Shown here one piece after another: positions 35,792 through 44,145 of a DNA stretch of 64,000 nucleotides. The notes below the pieces were generated by a model. The model was not told the origin of the DNA. It made no database searches and saw only the letters and a list, made by a program, of their open reading frames with translations. The DNA is from Caecibacter massiliensis. Lineage in GTDB: Bacteria; Bacillota; Negativicutes; Veillonellales; Megasphaeraceae. Every line of letters begins with the position of its first letter. Within the stretch, counting starts at the first letter, position 1. A program made the position numbers and the translations under genes. The stretch is taken from assembly GCA_900095875.1 (NCBI GenBank), contig LT608311.1, positions 310,001 to 374,000 on the forward strand, given 5' to 3'.

Positions 35792-36170
35792 CTATGATTT
35801 GTCCATTTTTCCAACTGTCTTTTTCACAGCTTCTGCCGGATTGGTAAGCCCGGGAACGGCCCCGGCAGAAACGGCCCAGATATATATACTGGCCACCGTA
35901 CCATAAGGGGAATACCGTTTCTGATACCGGCAGAACAGGTCTTTGGTGATGTTCCGGTGCCGGTATATCATGCGCAGGCCCCGTAATATGGCAAGGTCCC
36001 CATAGTTCAGCACATCGGTCCGCTCCAGGCAATGGATGAGCAGCATTTCCGCCGTCCACTGGCCGATACCCGGCAGCTGGCAAAGAGTCTGGCAAAACAG
36101 GTTATCCGGCATAGCTGATATGGTCTCTGCCCGGATCCGCCCTGACACGAATTCACGGGATATTCCCTGT
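35792..36170 (-). pseudogene. alkA: DNA-3-methyladenine glycosylase II, C-terminal fragment of split alkA
   Basis: This part encodes QGISREFVSGRIRAETI through the helix-hairpin-helix LPGIGQWTAEMLLIHCLE and the catalytic-Asp region NYGDLAILRGL, down to the natural end GKMDKS. The N-terminal part lies 6.47 kb away at 42620-42934 on the same strand. The shared 11-base repeat is read in the same phase on both sides. Joining at the repeat gives a continuous 223-residue protein, IQGI followed by SREFV. As it stands the fragment has no start or ribosome site and is not expected to be made. Confidence 0.9.
36160..36170. repeat. 11-base direct repeat, left boundary of the alkA insertion
   Basis: The sequence atattccctgt matches the right copy perfectly and lies in the alkA coding frame. 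With the preceding alkA bases it forms ggga-tat-tccc, a short dyad such as recombinase core sites often have. Confidence 0.8.
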
Positions 36171-36365
36171 GTATGCTAAAAAGCAATAAAATTGTCTCAC
36201 ATTTTATCAATAGTGACAAAACTGGCTATAATCAACATACTATAAATCATTGTATTAATCACGATTGCCTACATTTAACCACATTTAACCAGTTATTTTT
36301 GACGATTTTTTGACGGCAGGAACGATAAAGGGCACACCATCCATTACGGACAGTGTGCCTTCTTT
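36171..36365. other. Left end of the insertion: repeats and a hairpin, no gene
   Basis: No gene fits here. A tandem repeat catttaac-ca-catttaac lies near 36272-36290, followed by ttttgacgattttttgacgg, a near-duplicated tttgacg motif. Such short tandem arms resemble recombinase arm sites next to an attachment site. A hairpin (gggcacac / gtgtgcct, about 36330-36357) with a following T-run could terminate transcription from either direction. Confidence 0.45.
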
Positions 36366-37658
36366 TTAGTCTCCCAGTTTGAGTACAGCTTTCTTTGCAA
36401 TCCCACGCATCTTGACTTTCCTGGTATCAATCTGCATCCGCTTTTCTTCTGCACTCATCTTTGGATTATCCTGTATGTCACGTATTTCCTTATTAAGCTT
36501 TGATACGGTTTTCATTGCCGTGCGCACCTGCGCTAATTCCGTTGGTACTTTTGCGCCTTTCTTACCTTTCTGGAATGCATAGCTATCACTCCGTTTGTAA
36601 TCGATTTCCATCTGGTCCGACAAATCATACAGCCGGTCTACATATTCCGACCGCTGACTATCGTCGTTTCTGACAAAACTGCCAATGACGGGTAATTCAT
36701 ACCAATATTTAGCGGGTTCAGTCGGGCGGTCCTTACCGCGCAATGATTCAATTGGCTTATCCAATGTTTTGGCCAACGTACGTCCCATACTGATAAACCA
36801 TACGGAAGAATGATGTACTTAATAGTTGCCCATATAGCCCGTTTCGGATTTTCCTTGAACGTACGGATGAATTTATCAATACCCTGAATAGAAGCGTTTA
36901 AAAATGGGATGTAGCGGTTAATTTTTTCCCTACACTGCCATGTCGTGAGAAGTTGATAGATACTTCCCTTGCGGCATACCCGGCTTCTTTGTCCGTTGCG
37001 CCTTTCTTTCTGGCTTTCAGAAATTCCCCTGCCCGGGTGCCCTGTTCAATCAATTCGCCGACGTTATTGTATTTGTGTGCTGTAGCACTCAGGAACCACA
37101 TGGCCTGTCTAATACCAAACGGGTACTTTTTGATATTCTTCCGTAACTTTTTCTTGAAATCCTGCGCCCCCGGATATCATTGCGGATATATGTATCCATC
37201 GGTACGCCCTGCGCATAAAAATCAGCTTTAAACTGCTTGTCATGAGTCAGTTTCCACATCCCCCGGAAGCTGTCAACCAATGGAGTAAATCCATATTTAC
37301 TATTTATGCCAGCCGTTACGGTATCACGAATGAAGTTTCTCATCATGAAGCTTGGCGTATTTGTTGCGCCAAAACGAAGTGCATCCGTAAATTTGCCAAA
37401 TAGGTTTGACATAAATGCTGCGCTATTGGTATCCATCTGCGTAATGGATTCATACAGTTCCGGCGTTGTCCGGTACACTACTTTTTTGCCGGCCTTAATT
37501 ACCGTAAATGCACATCTCTGTCTATCGGCCCCGGTAAGAGTTGGGTCGCGAACAATGCCATTGCCCAGCCCGCCATGGTCTACCGCACATTGAACCATGA
37601 TTTTAGCCACATTATTCCGTTCACATTTGCTAATCAGGACCGTTGTCATGTTAATCAT
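36366..37658 (-). pseudogene. Frameshifted C-terminal region (LPD38-like) of the large polyvalent protein
   Basis: Successive frames encode one continuous homologous stretch. NPVDSMINMTTVLISKCERN through FMMRNFIRDTVTAGINSKYGF is followed by AMWFLSATAHKYNN and AAREVSINFSRHGS. NRYIPFLNASIQGIDKFI comes next, and finally MGRTLAKTLDKP through YWYELPVIGSFVRNDD. From memory this matches the LPD38-type C-terminus of phage polyvalent proteins. Moving between segments requires a frame change near 37668, 37168, 36920 (next to a run of six A) and 36810. The product cannot be made as a single chain. Confidence 0.7.
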
Positions 37659-40600
37659 GGAGTCAACCGGATTGATGACAGGCCGGCTACTACCACCAGA
37701 TAGAGATTTGATACCAGATGTCTGATTGATGAATCCCCTGCCCGTATTTTATTCTTGATTGCACCTTTATATACCTTATTAAGCGCCTTGAGGTTTGCAA
37801 CGCGGTTATCTCCATCAAGCAACATGAATGCTCGGGCAGATGCCACGCTATTGCACATAAGGGCACGTTTATGCGGGTCTTTTTCGTCCGCAATCTTTGC
37901 TCCTGTTTCCAGTTCCAGGGCTTTAGTCAACTGCCCGATCGGGTCAGTTTCATCAACCATCTTCGCATACAGGTGAAGCAGTCTCTTTTTCATCTGCTCT
38001 TTCCATGTAAGTTGAGAATCTGGCTTCCCGTTGCTGATACCAGCGGCGGCAGACAATAACGGATTCTGCCGTACTCTCTGGTCCTGCAACGCAAGGACTT
38101 TTTCGACACCAGCTTTTTCTTTAGGCATACCGTCAAGAGCTTTCTCGAATAAGTCGTAATACTGGGGATACGTTTCTTTAGCACGTCCGTTATCAAGGAA
38201 ATAGAGCCGGCCAAAATTCCGTACGCCTTCTTGTCTTGCCTGGGAATGGCTGATATCAGTCGGAACTTTGCTCTTGTACTTCTTGGCGTTACGTTGTTCC
38301 ATTTGACGGTCTTCAATGATATCTTTGGTCAGTTCTATATTGGCCCCCTTGATTTCTCCAATGCTGTCAATGTGAAGCGCAATGGCAGAGCCGATATCAC
38401 CAACGTCAAAACTTCCGGGAACAAATCCGGCCCGTTGGCGTGCGTCATAGTGGTATTTGGCCGGCGATTTTTCTCCTACCTTCGACTTGGTATAGATAGG
38501 CACAATTTTACGGGCTTCCGTAAGAATATCATTCAAGGTAACCGCGGTATTTTCTGCATCCTGTTCCGCCTTTTCTCTGGCTTCCTCTGCGGCATCTTTG
38601 GGCTTAGTAACGGAATATCGGCGTCCACTGTTCTGTCCGTTCGCATTCCGTTCCCAGACTTCGCCGGATTCAATCTTGCGGAATACGTTATGTACGTTCT
38701 CTGCTCCCGTGAGTATTGTCTTCATCTTCATGGCAAAATTCTTGATTTTCTGGAACAATTTGCCCCATGCTGTTCCGCGTCCGTGCTTGCGTGCTTCTAC
38801 CCATTCGGCGTACTTGTCGGCGCGCTTTTCGGCGTCCGAGATAGCCTTCTTAATAGCGGCCTTTTCACGGTCCGTCAAGACGGCGCCTTCTGCGAGGTGA
38901 TAGGCTTCGTGGAACCCTGTACCTTCACGGCTCCCTTGTGCCAGTGCCATGTAGGCGTCTTTCCCGTGTACTTCGGCGTACCCTTCGACAACGACGTTGC
39001 CGTTATCGTCGATATGGTGGTCTTTCTTCGCCTGCGCCAGCTCTTTGTCCGTCAAAAGGATTTCATTCTTCAAGTCAACGACGATATGGGACCCGTTCGG
39101 CATGGTGAAAGTCATGCGTTCGCCTTCGTCCTTGATTTCTTTGGCGTTCGGGAACGCTTCCTTGATTTCCGCCTTCAAGCCTTCCTTGGGGCGGATAAGC
39201 TGGGCATTTTCTTCTCGTACTGAATATTTCTTTCCTTTTTCCGCTTCCTGGGGTATAATTGATGTAGAAGAAGTACCAGTTTCTCTGCTACGACGAGTAA
39301 GCGTAGGCGTAGCAGTAGTAGCCGTAGAAGAGTCGTAACCCTCGCTACGAGCACTAACTGGTGCTTCTTTTTTGTCTTCCCAGCCAGTTAAAAGCCAGGA
39401 ATTAGCTTTTTCAGTTTTAGAGCTTAATATAGCTGTATATCCATCATAATGTATTTTAAGCCTATATTCCCCGTTGCTACCATTGGCATGTTGAATTTCC
39501 GTATCTGTGCCCTTAGCGATAACTTCCACTAATTTGTTGAGAGTGTCTATACCGGAACCATTCTCAGAATCTCGTTTTGCTTTTATATGAGCAATGCCAT
39601 ACCCCTTTTTAAATTTACTTTCTTTGCCAGGGGTGCCATATATAAAATCAATATCACCCACATCGTCGCGATGCATGGCGGCTTTTACATCTCGCTTCGT
39701 TTGCAAAACGACAGCCATTGCCTTTTTCCCGTGAGCTATTTCTTCTTGTACGTCACTTTGGGGACCTTCTTCGGCATGGGTACTTTCCGCGTCTTTACTT
39801 TCAGTTTGCTGAGGTTCGGTGTCGACATTGTGATTTTCGGTGTTTTCTTCATTGGCTTCTCCTTTCCGTACTTTATGTTGTTTTTGCCCTTTATCATATT
39901 CAGGCGTTTTTATTGATTCAGGTTGCGAGCGGTTTGCATCAATGGCCGGATGGCCCTTGTCGGTTTCATGTACTGCCTGTTCGTCTACTTCTGGTCTGTT
40001 TTCTGTTTTTCCTGCGCTTTCTTCTTTTCGTTCGCTTCCATTAATGCCAGCATTCGTTTCAGTACCTGCGGACGTACCCGGCAGTACCCCGTCGGCCATT
40101 CTTCCACTGGCCGTGTCCGTCTGATTTCCTTCACTTCTTCCGGTGTCAAATAACGATTGTACTCCATTGTTTTCAACCTTCCCTTCGGCAATGTTGATGA
40201 CTTCTTCCATGGTCGGGTTTTCCGATGCGATCAATGCGCTTTGGTCCGGATGCCCCTGCAATTCGATTTCATTGCACATTTCATTGAAGAACGCTGTAAT
40301 CGTTTTTCCACTGCGTTTGTTCCTGTCAATGAACTGCAATACGTCATTGATACTGTCCTGGTTTTCGCTTTCCGATATCAGTGACGTTTCTTCTAAATAG
40401 AATTTTACAGGTTTATTCTGCTCCCGTAAACCGATAAGCGTCTTGGCTGAGCCGGAAATTACGTCAGATAGCGGATAAGAATAGAACAGCCCTTTCCCCA
40501 TTCCGTCATTCAGCATAGCGACCTTCGGGGCAACGGTCAGCATAGCGTTCATGACGTTACGGATATTATTGTCCGTCGATTCACTCATCTTGGTAAGCAG

Positions 40601-41095
40601 ATAGTCGTCACCATATGCCTTGGCAAATACTGCGTTCTTGACGCGGGTAATGCCGGCCTGACTGATTTTGCCGGTCTTAGTATACAGTGTATTCAGTTCT
40701 TCCGGGCTGGCAACGTCTTTCAATACAGAGTTTACGAACTTCCGGTTGCTTTCCTGCGTGAGGTCACCGCTGTCAGATGCCAGTTGCAGTGTTGACTGCT
40801 TGATTCTGTCGGCGTCTTTCTTTGCAGTTTCTCCTGCGCTCATCTGCGAACCGCCGGCCTTGCTGTTGATGATATCCTGCACTGGTGCATCATCTGCTAC
40901 CTGACGGACGAGTACCGGGTTCTTAACACCGTCAATCGTTGCCGGGTCGATTCCCAGAGACTTGGCATTCTGTTTAAGGAAGTCTTTATATGCTTTAATC
41001 TGTTTCGGCTTCCCTTTGTATACGGATTTAAGCGCCATGGTACGGCCATTACCATTCAGGACACCGCCTTGGCTGTTGATGACAGGTGCGCCCAT
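37655..41095 (-). pseudogene. Large polyvalent protein fragment: ParB/DdrB-like, BECR nuclease-like and metalloprotease-like domains
   Basis: An open frame of 1,146 codons. Residues 1-275 resemble a DdrB-like ParB domain lacking its beginning (VLNGNGRTMALKSVY, PVLVRQVADD). A low-complexity acidic linker spans about 310-450. Residues about 458-577 resemble a barnase/colicin E5-type (BECR) nuclease domain (GDIDFIYGTPG, KKGYGIAHIKAKR, SWLLTGWEDKK). Residues 628-816 hold a metalloprotease-like segment with HEAYH at 729-733. The frame ends out of register with the LPD38-like region downstream. Such proteins are thought to be injected with phage or plasmid DNA. Domain names are from memory; there is no clear start codon. 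Confidence 0.65.
38648..39213. repeat. 566-base direct repeat, copy 1 (metalloprotease-like segment)
   Basis: Matches 41173-41738 with a constant offset of 2,525 bases, no visible indel and only scattered base differences. It encodes about 189 residues containing FHEAYHLAEG and KKDHHIDDNGNVVVEGYAEV. Confidence 0.85.
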
Positions 41096-42630
41096 ATTGG
41101 CGTTGTTGGACGCTCCCAGGGCAGACGTTTACGATTAAGACTATACTTGCCAGTCTGGCCATTGGTTGGTGTCCGTTCCCAGACTTCGCCGGATTCAATC
41201 TTACGGAATACGTTATGTACGGTTTCTGCTCCCGTGAGTATTGTCTTCATCTTCATGGCAAAATCCTTGATTTTCTGGAACAATTTGCCCCATGCTGTTC
41301 CGCGTCCGCGCTTACGGGCTTCTACCCATTCGGCGTACTTGTCGGCGCGCTTTTCGGCGTCCGGGATAGCCTTCTTGATAGCGGCCTTTTCACGGTCCGT
41401 CAAGACGGCGCCTTCTGCGAGGTGATAGGCTTCGTGGAACCCTGTACCTTCACGGCTCCCTTGTGCCAGTGCCATGTAGGCGTCTTTCCCGTGTACTTCG
41501 GCGTACCCTTCGACAACGACGTTGCCGTTATCGTCGATATGGTGGTCTTTCTTCGCCTGCGCCAGCTCTTTGTCCGTCAAAAGGATTTCATTCTTCAAGT
41601 CAACGACGATATGGGACCCGTTCGGCATGGTGAAAGTCATGCGTTCGCCTTCGTCCTTGATTTCTTTGGCGTTCGGGAACGCTTCCTTGATCTCCGCCTT
41701 CAAGCCTTCCTTGGAGCGGATAAGCTGGGCATTTTCTTTAGCAGACTGTGCTACCTTCTCATTCCCTTTCGACAATTTATCAAGGGCGTAGCCATACGCT
41801 TGTTTACCGCCATCACTTAATTGATTGCGCAACTCGTCTGGCTTGTTCCATTTTTCTGCCTTTTGAGGTATAATTGAGGTAGAAAAAGGTTCCCGCATGG
41901 CCGGAATGCCGTCGCTTTTATTAGCGGCTTGCGCCGGATATACAGGGGGTCTTTTTTTATTTTCTTCATCATTCAGAATGTGATTGTAATATTTATTCCC
42001 GTTTGCATCGGTAAAAATAGTAACTATTACATTTTCCCGTTTTCCACCTACAATAGCATGCGTCATTAAGTAAGTATATTGTTTTGCCTCTCGCTTGTCT
42101 TTTACATTAGGCTGGGATGCAACCTCATTAGCATTTTCTATTAACTGTGGCAAATATTTTATAAGCAATAACTTGTTTTCTTTTGCGCTTGTAGAAACGG
42201 CTTTGCTTATCCCCTTGCCGGTAAAGTCAATAGAATCATCCTTTAACTCAACATTCCCCAATATAGAATTATGTACAGAAGTACCTTGTAAATGTTCTTT
42301 GTAATAAGCCTTGGCTTTTGCCCTTAATTCTTTCAAACCTTCATATTTGCCAAATTCATCACCAGTAACAACAACGTCGTCCTTTGGGGCGGCTTTTTTT
42401 GTTTCTGCTTGTGCGAGGACTGGGGATTTGTCTTTTGACAACGCGTCGTCAATGACTCCTTGCGCCGCCTGTTTCAGGTCTTCTCTGTCACATACGACTT
42501 CTTTTGTTGCAACGTCTACATAGCATTTAGTACCTTCTATGCGTCTGGCTTCTGAGTTGCTGATTGTTTCCCCGTTGAATTTTGCAGATGAAATATTGCC
42601 GGATTTGTACCGGGTAAGTTCAATCCCTAA
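41056..42630 (-). pseudogene. Second polyvalent protein fragment: LPD3-like and metalloprotease-like domains
   Basis: The open frame crosses the right insertion boundary, so its first residues are alkA DNA read in another phase. The genuine element part begins near GIELTRYKSGNISSAKFNG, with its own N-terminus missing. An LPD3-like stretch follows (SIDFTGKGISKAV, YLPQLIENANE, KYYNHILND; about 42235-41960). Then comes a near-identical copy of the metalloprotease-like segment, with HEAYH at 41422-41436. The frame ends after a scrambled tail (ERPTTPIWAHL) that overlaps the next fragment by 40 bases in another frame. It looks like the product of deletion and duplication in one ancestral gene. Confidence 0.65.
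41173..41738. repeat. 566-base direct repeat, copy 2 (metalloprotease-like segment)
   Basis: The partner of 38648-39213 in the same orientation. Protein differences are few (for example ISDAEK/IPDAEK, KHGRG/KRGRG, ENVH/ETVH), which indicates a fairly recent duplication or recombination between related polyvalent genes. Confidence 0.85.
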
Positions 42631-42934
42631 ATATTCCCTGTATATAATCAATTTTCCGGAATGTTGTTCCACATGCCTGCAGGTCTTCTTTCGAAAAACG
42701 CAGCACATGTTCCGGCGTCACTGGGTAACATACATCCTGGAAGCGCTGCCATATCGTATCAGCCGCTTTTGTAGAAATCTGCTGTCCCAGAATGGCATTT
42801 ACCAATGCCTGGAACAAATCGGGAATGACCGGCCGGCGTACATATCCCAGCTGATGGATGACGGCAGCCAGCTTCTTATCCTTTTTTGCAGAGATAAGCA
42901 ATTTCCCTTTCTCCATAGGGAAAGTACCTGTCAT
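42620..42934 (-). pseudogene. alkA: DNA-3-methyladenine glycosylase II, N-terminal fragment of split alkA
   Basis: This encodes MTGTFPMEKGKLLISAKKD and the family motif NAILGQQISTKAADTIW, through TTFRKIDYIQGI. It then enters the insertion and stops three codons later (FRD, then TGA). The start codon overlaps the ogt stop as ATGA, so the original gene was coupled to ogt. The helix-hairpin-helix and catalytic Asp are on the other fragment, so this 104-residue product should be inactive. Confidence 0.9.
42631..42641. repeat. 11-base direct repeat, right boundary of the alkA insertion
   Basis: The second copy of atattccctgt, read in the same alkA phase (codons for I-Q-G-I). Flanking bases differ from the left copy on both sides, as expected for an attachment core or target duplication. 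Confidence 0.8.
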
Positions 42935-43437
42935 CCATGTCTATTCTCCTTCTCCAGCTGCAGCAGATATTTTTTTGTTTCCAGCCCTGCCGCATAACCG
43001 GTCAGACTGCCATCAGCTCCGATGATACGGTGACACGGAATGAGAATCAGAATGGGATTACGGTGATTGGCCATTCCTACGGCCCGGCTTGCTTTGGGAT
43101 TCCCTGCCATTTTGGCAATTTCGCCATAGGTCCGTGTCTGGCCATACGGAATCTGGCATAAGGCATTCCATACGCGCTGCTGGAAGGGAGTACCTGACGG
43201 CGCCAGCGGCACATCAAAAGACCGCTGGCGGCCAGCAAAATATTCCTGTAATTCTTCACGGCATTGCCGGATGAACCGATTCTCTACCGTCTTATCTTCC
43301 ATTCCTGCCGGCCTTTCTTCTGCAGAAATCCGTTCTACAGCCGTATCCGAAGCGGTGATTTTCAGAATGCCTATGGGGGATGTCATATAACCATATATCT
43401 TATTTCCCTTGTTTTCCTGTATCATAGATGTATTCAT
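42931..43437 (-). CDS. ogt: Methylated-DNA--protein-cysteine methyltransferase
   Basis: A 168-residue suicide repair enzyme that moves a methyl group from O6-methylguanine to its own Cys. The active-site motif ILIPCHRIIGADGSLTGYAAG is intact near residues 130-150, preceded by the DNA-binding helix YGEIAKMAGNPKASRAVGMA. The ATG follows a GAGGTGGAATT site. It is divergent from adaA and followed with ATGA overlap by the interrupted alkA, so the original unit was an alkylation-damage operon. It is probably controlled from the shared adaA-ogt intergenic region. Confidence 0.95.
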   Translation of the reverse strand: MNTSMIQENKGNKIYGYMTSPIGILKITASDTAVERISAEERPAGMEDKTVENRFIRQCREELQEYFAGRQRSFDVPLAPSGTPFQQRVWNALCQIPYGQTRTYGEIAKMAGNPKASRAVGMANHRNPILILIPCHRIIGADGSLTGYAAGLETKKYLLQLEKENRHG

Positions 43438-43576: not shown

Positions 43577-43599
43577 AGAACCAGGAAGTGGATAAAACC

Positions 43600-44145
43600 A
43601 TGAACGCAGAAGAAAAGTGGCAGGCGGTCTGCCGCTGTGATGTAAACTACGATGGAATATTCTGGTACGGTGTGAAAAGTACAGGTATTTTCTGTAACCC
43701 GTCCTGTAAATCCCGCCGCCCCAAAAAAGATAATATCGTTTATTTTGATTCTCCCCGGGAAGCCATAGATGCGGGCTACCGGGTCTGCAAACGGTGCCAT
43801 CCCGACCTGCAGTCCTATGACCCAAACCGGCTTCTGATCCGCCACATAAAAGAAATATTAGATCATAACGCCTGCAACCCGCAGAAACTGCAGGAAGCAC
43901 TGAGACAGATTCCTATGACGTCCCATCATTTCAATCAGCTGTTCAAGGACCATTATGGTCAGACTCCCCATGCATACATCTTGAACAGGCGTCTGGAAAA
44001 AGCAGCCTCTATGCTGAAAGCCAGCAGTCAATCGGTGTTGGATATCGCCATGGCTGCTGGTTTTGGTAGTATATCTTCGTTTTATGCGTCATTCCGACGG
44101 GTTTACGGCGTGTCACCGGCCCGGTACAGGGAACTAAATCTATAA
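43600..44145 (+). CDS. adaA: AdaA-like methylphosphotriester-DNA methyltransferase and AraC-type activator
   Basis: A 181-residue protein with two domains. The N-terminal Ada zinc domain carries four cysteines: GIFCNPSCKSRRP, the first of these being the methyl acceptor, and RVCKRCHPD. The C-terminal AraC helix-turn-helix pair ends in GFGSISSFYASFRRVYGVSPARYR. It has no O6-methylguanine methyltransferase domain, which is the separate ogt opposite, the AdaA/AdaB arrangement of Firmicutes. The ATG at 43600 has an AGGAAG site; a GTG four codons earlier overlaps it. Once methylated it should activate itself and ogt-alkA. Confidence 0.93.
   Translation: MNAEEKWQAVCRCDVNYDGIFWYGVKSTGIFCNPSCKSRRPKKDNIVYFDSPREAIDAGYRVCKRCHPDLQSYDPNRLLIRHIKEILDHNACNPQKLQEALRQIPMTSHHFNQLFKDHYGQTPHAYILNRRLEKAASMLKASSQSVLDIAMAAGFGSISSFYASFRRVYGVSPARYRELNL

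Follow-up and report, generated by a model that had tools for sequence, protein, structure and literature searches.

Is the alkylation-repair gene alkA of Caecibacter massiliensis under the control of a reversible genetic switch, or has it been broken for good? In the window analysed here, a stretch of 64,000 nt that corresponds to positions 310001-374000 of contig 2 in the 2.65-Mb host genome, an insert with a repeat period of 6,471 bp and ATATTCCCTGT on either side splits alkA. A first-pass annotation had proposed that this is a regulatory prophage, which restores the gene by precise excision. The best explanation of the evidence below is, in our judgement, very probably a different one: the insert is the remnant of a temperate phage, deleted from within its polyvalent gene to the core of its right attachment site (attR), with permanent loss of this AlkA. 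A role of the host's own type I-F CRISPR-Cas system (clustered regularly interspaced short palindromic repeats and associated proteins) in that deletion is a more tentative part of the proposal.

The split itself, as described at first pass, was recovered in full. The window has exactly two copies of ATATTCCCTGT, at 36160-36170 and 42631-42641, both on the plus strand, and shuffling it 100 times gave a mean of 0.03 copies and never two (0/100). The codon phase is the same at both borders: joining the flanks over one repeat copy yields a single open frame, MTGTF...TTFRKIDYIQGI-SREFVSGRIRAETI...KMDKS, a full-length AlkA of 223 residues with the Pfam domain HhH-GPD (PF00730) in its 5' part. The ogt-alkA surroundings beside an adaA-type regulator were found as well. 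The gene directly upstream is ogt, whose stop at 42931 and the alkA start at 42934 form a 4-bp overlap, and the divergent neighbour of ogt has Pfam Ada_Zn_binding and AraC helix-turn-helix (HTH) domains. A trace of a left attachment site (attL) and attR is the best reading of the 11-bp repeat. In the host genome the element is single-copy, its sole further match covering 117 bp at 74%.

35792-36159, minus strand: 3' part of alkA, in frame with the 5' part once joined (joined 223-aa frame).
36160-36170, plus strand: left copy of ATATTCCCTGT, read as the attachment (att) core at the distal (non-integrase) prophage end.
42631-42641, plus strand: right copy of ATATTCCCTGT, with ATATTCC common to phage gene and core and CTGT from the alkA side.
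42642-42934, minus strand: 5' part of alkA, the N-terminal half of HhH-GPD, up to the att core (PF00730; joined frame).
42931-43437, minus strand: ogt, the upstream partner of alkA (Pfam PF01035, PF02870).
43588-44145, plus strand: adaA-like activator (Ada Zn-binding and AraC HTH, Pfam).

What lies between the repeats is a piece of one phage gene. Pfam finds LPD3, ddrB-ParB and PBECR1 domains in the insert, as in phage large polyvalent proteins (PMC5512222). A search of viral contigs gave a close relative, IMGVR_UViG_2841216226_000006 (locus L019; record G015, 59,656 bp), which blastn aligns to the insert in eight blocks (4,964 bp at 95%; individual blocks 89-98%). In this relative the three domains belong, as in phage polyvalent proteins, to one large gene, a single frame of 3,278 codons with its stop at base 1 of the record; the window gene differs in being broken into at least five open reading frames (ORFs). 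At the opposite end of G015 a tyrosine integrase gene has its stop at the last base, 59,656, and PHROGs assigns head, portal, terminase, endolysin and regulator genes to the interior, a tenth protein tested being without a match. By sequence identity, and given the gene content of G015, the insert belongs with prophages of this type, and a phage origin is supported. It keeps 4,389 of the 59,656 G015 positions, all inside the first 6,464, and has neither an integrase nor an integrase-side arm at its other end, so it is a remnant and not a prophage. It is very probably the decayed end of a prophage of ~60 kb.

36366-42637, minus strand: rearranged, frameshifted remnant of a large polyvalent protein gene (blastn blocks to L019; Pfam).
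36366-36788, minus strand: broken 140-aa ORF that covers the C terminus of the polyvalent protein (96% to L049, in the same record as L019).
36898-37101, minus strand: broken ORF of the polyvalent gene, 67 aa (within block 36802-37748).
37089-37658, minus strand: broken ORF of the polyvalent gene, 189 aa (within block 36802-37748).
37655-41095, minus strand: broken ORF, 1,146 aa, with ddrB-ParB and PBECR1 (ORF list, Pfam).
38640-39246, minus strand: duplicated polyvalent segment, second copy (98.1% identical to 41172-41738 over 567 bp).
41056-42708, minus strand: chimeric ORF of 550 aa that starts in alkA sequence and continues into a polyvalent fragment (LPD3).
41172-41738, minus strand: duplicated polyvalent segment, first copy (compared with L019, the order of the segments points to a duplication junction at 41127/41172).

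Relative to L019, the insert has lost about 475 bp in one place and about 388 bp in another, carries three single-base insertions or deletions and has one segment duplicated. Three further gaps between blocks contain unrelated sequence and could reflect modules in which phages differ. The two duplicate copies are 98.1% alike, yet each is only ~90% identical to L019 (duplication junction at 41127-41172 of the window). No blastn match to the insert was found among 50,697 phage records at E 1e-5. The last gene of the element has three relatives in the viral contig collection, G015 among them, and none in the genome contig collection, and the G015 integrase matched nothing besides itself in the viral contig collection.

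At its left border, inside alkA, the insert has what appears to be a site-specific attachment end, judged by a conserved motif and its distance from the repeat.

36171-36365, plus strand: putative distal attachment arm, from the att core to the end of the polyvalent gene (holds the conserved motif; the phage stop at 36366 equals G015 base 1).
36296-36315, plus strand: tandem arm-like motif TTTTTGACGATTTTTTGACG (11 matches in 61 genomes, 0 for the reversed pattern).

Scanning 61 genomes of the order for TTTTTGACGAWTTTTTGACG gave 11 matches in 7 genomes, and none for the reversed control. Four of the 11 motifs stand at an integrase stop codon and the other 7 beside host-type genes; in G019, G001 and G006 a distal motif is paired with an integrase-end motif. 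Both ends were compared for five prophage pairs, the motifs at G031 and G006-C1 falling outside that test. Four pairs have a direct repeat of 15-18 bp common to both ends (0/500 shuffles each), which starts at -127, -128, -129 and -135 relative to the distal motif, and the window repeat starts at -136. Among 19 loci whose integrases are related to that of G015, 17 have TTTTTG[AC]CG within ~25 nt past the stop; of the other two, L087 has a weaker variant, TTTTGGCCG, and L089 is without an ORF under the filter used. Position and conservation suggest that the arm-like motif is an arm-binding site of the integrase. An attachment end with the motif and a core at the right distance was found at the left end of the insert only. 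Literature searches returned nothing on this motif for TTTTTGACG with integrase (full texts lay outside the search), and no paper on arm-type sites that matched TTTTTGAC.

The same motif gave several observations beyond the window. Standing directly after 17 of the 19 related integrase genes (L074-L092), TTTTTG[AC]CG is a possible general marker of prophage ends in the order, and the arm-like motif beside this integrase clade offers a simple handle for finding exact prophage ends there. It also occurs just downstream of rpsD at L063/L070 (G019) and L068 (G031), and in G019 both prophage ends carry an 18-bp repeat by which the end of rpsD is restored. At L066/L077 (G005), just upstream of glnS, a prophage with an integrase of the same clade is bounded by a 17-bp repeat. 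A further prophage of the related integrase clade, L064/L071 (G001:C118:34412, C131:1463), splits an ABC transporter substrate-binding gene in mid-frame, with a 15-bp core that is in frame after joining; because it has its own integrase, unlike the window element, it is the better candidate for a gene-restoring prophage.

At the right border the match to the phage gene ends at 42637, an internal point of that gene. Here L019 reads AAATATTCCGG, L020 reads AAATACTCCGG and the window reads AAATATTCCCTGT, and at the joint itself AAATATTCC is followed by GG in L019 and by CTGT in the window. ATATTCC, the left 7 nt of the right-hand repeat copy, is thus present at the same point in the L019 gene, so that only CTGT of this copy is diagnostic of alkA, and the phage gene has been joined to the alkA-side att core via ATATTCC. 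Among random phage-to-alkA joints, 122 of 200,000 reached 7 nt of homology or more. No tandem arm-like motif occurs at the right end of the insert. Gone from the insert are the integrase, the integrase-side arm and the structural genes, about 55 kb if the ancestor was like G015. Originally, the att core may have extended beyond 11 bp on its left side.

We infer that a full prophage once occupied this site, and the order of events would be as follows. A temperate phage of ~60 kb, near IMGVR_UViG_2841216226_000006, would have been integrated by its tyrosine integrase into an att core in alkA that comprised at least ATATTCCCTGT. Later, some 55 kb would have been lost in a deletion that joined two ATATTCC 7-mers and ran from the middle of the terminal polyvalent gene, across the integrase gene, up to the attR core. 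This would have left attL and, joined to the core on the alkA side, a scrambled piece of the gene. Self-targeting by the I-F system, with Cas2-3 degradation and then alternative end joining, may have produced or selected the deletion. Like other cryptic prophage remnants that arise by internal deletion, the insert keeps an attL-type end, has lost integrase and structural genes and holds a frameshifted gene; it differs from them in that the host gene stays disrupted and in that the lost phage part is matched by spacers of the same genome.

Those spacers belong to a type I-F CRISPR-Cas locus at G000:C2:2197152-2211028 (L097, L098). Interference genes are present in the genome, and the cas genes identified are Cas1f, Cas2-3f, Cas8f, Cas5f, Cas7f (first 245 residues tested) and Cas6f. 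Querying the host genome with 19.7 kb of G015 gave four matches of 32-35 nt. In the 30 kb read, two arrays with a CRISPR repeat of 28 nt flank the cas genes and hold 86 spacers in all, 3 ahead of these genes and 83 behind them. At up to 5 mismatches, 17 of the 86 spacers match G015, 4 of them exactly, at 16 distinct protospacers, and 7 match G016; none of the 86 has fewer than 9 mismatches to the window or fewer than 10 to the remnant. Next to 16 of the 17 spacer matches in G015 stands 5'-CC, which we take to be the I-F protospacer-adjacent motif (PAM). PMC3630108 writes this PAM on the other strand, as protospacer-GG. All 16 protospacer sites fall in the lost part, at 8.7-52.9 kb of G015. Spacers with the correct PAM therefore match the lost part and none matches the retained part, an absence that is not significant by itself and is consistent with pruning but no proof of it. 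Along the main array the G015-matching spacers range from the 5th to the 69th of 83, a spread that suggests repeated encounters.

Deletions of this kind have been reported after I-F self-targeting. PMC3630108 describes a 40,227-bp island deletion between TTGGCAC 7-mers, and a review (PMC6990116) states that alternative end joining uses microhomologies of 1-9 bp and has been suggested for large deletions after I-F self-attack. The deletion of ~55 kb at a 7-nt microhomology proposed here resembles these published cases. The likeness to the HAI2 deletions of Pectobacterium atrosepticum (PMC3630108) lies in a type I-F system, in an internal loss of tens of kb in an integrated element and in a joint at a 7-nt repeat. 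The differences are that the class II mutants of HAI2 kept both attL and attR and could still excise, whereas the window relic keeps one arm, and that the HAI2 deletions were observed in the study, whereas the relic is natural, with no observed event and a deletion that would reach attR. By title or start of abstract, a literature search on CRISPR, prophage and alkA found nothing about this combination. CRISPR-driven pruning is plausible but unproven. As the driver of the deletion CRISPR comes close to an even chance without reaching it, and the fuller claim, that the cell's own I-F system cut a self-targeted prophage back to a stub invisible to CRISPR and so fixed the loss of alkA, is held a little more loosely still.

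The strongest rival differs from our best explanation in the driver only. It regards the same remnant as the product of plain neutral decay through spontaneous microhomology recombination, with the spacers as records of unrelated infections, and its probability likewise falls slightly short of one half. Prophage decay is common, spacers need no resident target, and the smaller lesions inside the insert are other decay events. The difficulty is that a G015-like prophage would be matched by up to 16 CC-PAM spacers of an apparently complete I-F system, so some escape would be needed if system and prophage ever coexisted. Several further points weigh against the history that we propose. With 16 distinct protospacers placed at random, the retained part would escape any match at P = 0.16; spacers could be acquired without any resident prophage; and one fifth of the spacers against one phage group may reflect frequent infection only. 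The two internal deletion junctions measured have 0 and 1 nt of microhomology, unlike the right border, and so arose differently from it. The integrase-side attR arm is deduced rather than observed, and the att core is not comparable with that of G015, whose record stops at its genes. The fifth prophage pair, G051, has a best repeat of 9 bp, which 318 of 500 shuffles reached. Finally, neither an intact prophage nor an empty site was observed at alkA.

Alternatively, a piece of phage DNA would have entered alkA by illegitimate recombination, with no site-specific step; the right junction, a 7-nt microhomology joint, would suit this. We consider it improbable, given that the left border sits where four other prophages have their att core and that host sequence is repeated on both sides.

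The reading advanced at first pass, an active-lysogeny element that excises on cue and restores alkA, is very improbable, although the in-frame direct repeats, the full alkA obtained on joining, the two halves that are still open and the position within a stress-response operon would all suit it. Such prophages are reportedly known in comK, mutL and hlb, the last being Sa3mw (PMC6597384). The window element is like them in its insertion into a host coding gene at a short gene-restoring core, and unlike them in lacking recombination machinery and a second arm. The ORF list has no integrase in the insert; the host genome has 4 Phage_integrase genes, none of the G015 clade at E 1e-30. The right side has no tandem arm motif, its end is internal to a phage gene, and the element's own gene is scrambled. 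With no recombinase of its own and with one arm, the insert probably cannot excise; slippage between the 11-bp repeats is conceivable but would be rare.

Searches of related genomes, which had been proposed together with the switch, also came back empty. Among genomes of the family, 17 in all and one per species, no relative with an empty site and none with an intact prophage at alkA was found. The first-pass annotation had held that an insert with no such relative would be a dead scar, and by that measure it looks like one. DNA of the insert was found in its own genome only among 15 genomes of the genus (up to 20 candidates in each), and the last gene of the element in 1 of the 17 family genomes, its own; G006 has a related polyvalent gene elsewhere in the genome (74%). 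AlkA relatives in the genome contig collection, the best 80 of 492 stretches, are 45-58% identical and so too distant to show the site. A 24-nt pattern of the left junction had 0 matches in the viral collections. Among the papers listed, none on a prophage insertion in alkA was found by title or start of abstract, and such an insertion could well be in print elsewhere. A second prophage, suspected across the contig start at G000:C2:2.63 Mb (integrase at 21.9 kb), was rejected on the ORFs there.

A helper-dependent 6.5-kb satellite, mobilised in trans by a phage integrase, is just as improbable as the switch: one attachment-type end with an arm-like motif and persisting long ORFs (1,146 and 550 aa) would fit it, whereas the single arm, a content made of a scrambled piece of one phage gene, a last gene found in 0 of 16 other family genomes and the lack of a second genome copy beyond the 117-bp match do not.

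For the cell, the first-pass expectation that carriers of the element lack this AlkA holds, since the gene is split. The remnant would entail permanent loss of this AlkA rather than a switch. A Tag-family 3-methyladenine glycosylase is intact elsewhere in the genome (PF03352, E 3e-67), so the loss would be partly buffered; a search of the host genome for an AlkD-type protein (PF08713) found none. AlkA is rare in the family, with 3 of 17 genomes at E 1e-20, its own included; the other two are G007 (43%) and G018 (39%, with three stops). The G018 homologue (L035, G018:C31:8458-9009) comes from the other genus of the family, and its three stop codons suggest that alkA may be degenerating in that genus as well.

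An attractive reading of this locus as a repair-gene switch is thereby replaced by that of a prophage scar, which can be tested. A prophage scar whose breakpoint shows 7 nt of microhomology occurs in the same genome as a CRISPR array with 17 spacers against the lost phage, and together they are a possible natural counterpart to the I-F self-targeting deletions made in the laboratory. If CRISPR did carve the prophage, immunity to a phage would have been paid for with the permanent loss of a DNA-repair gene.

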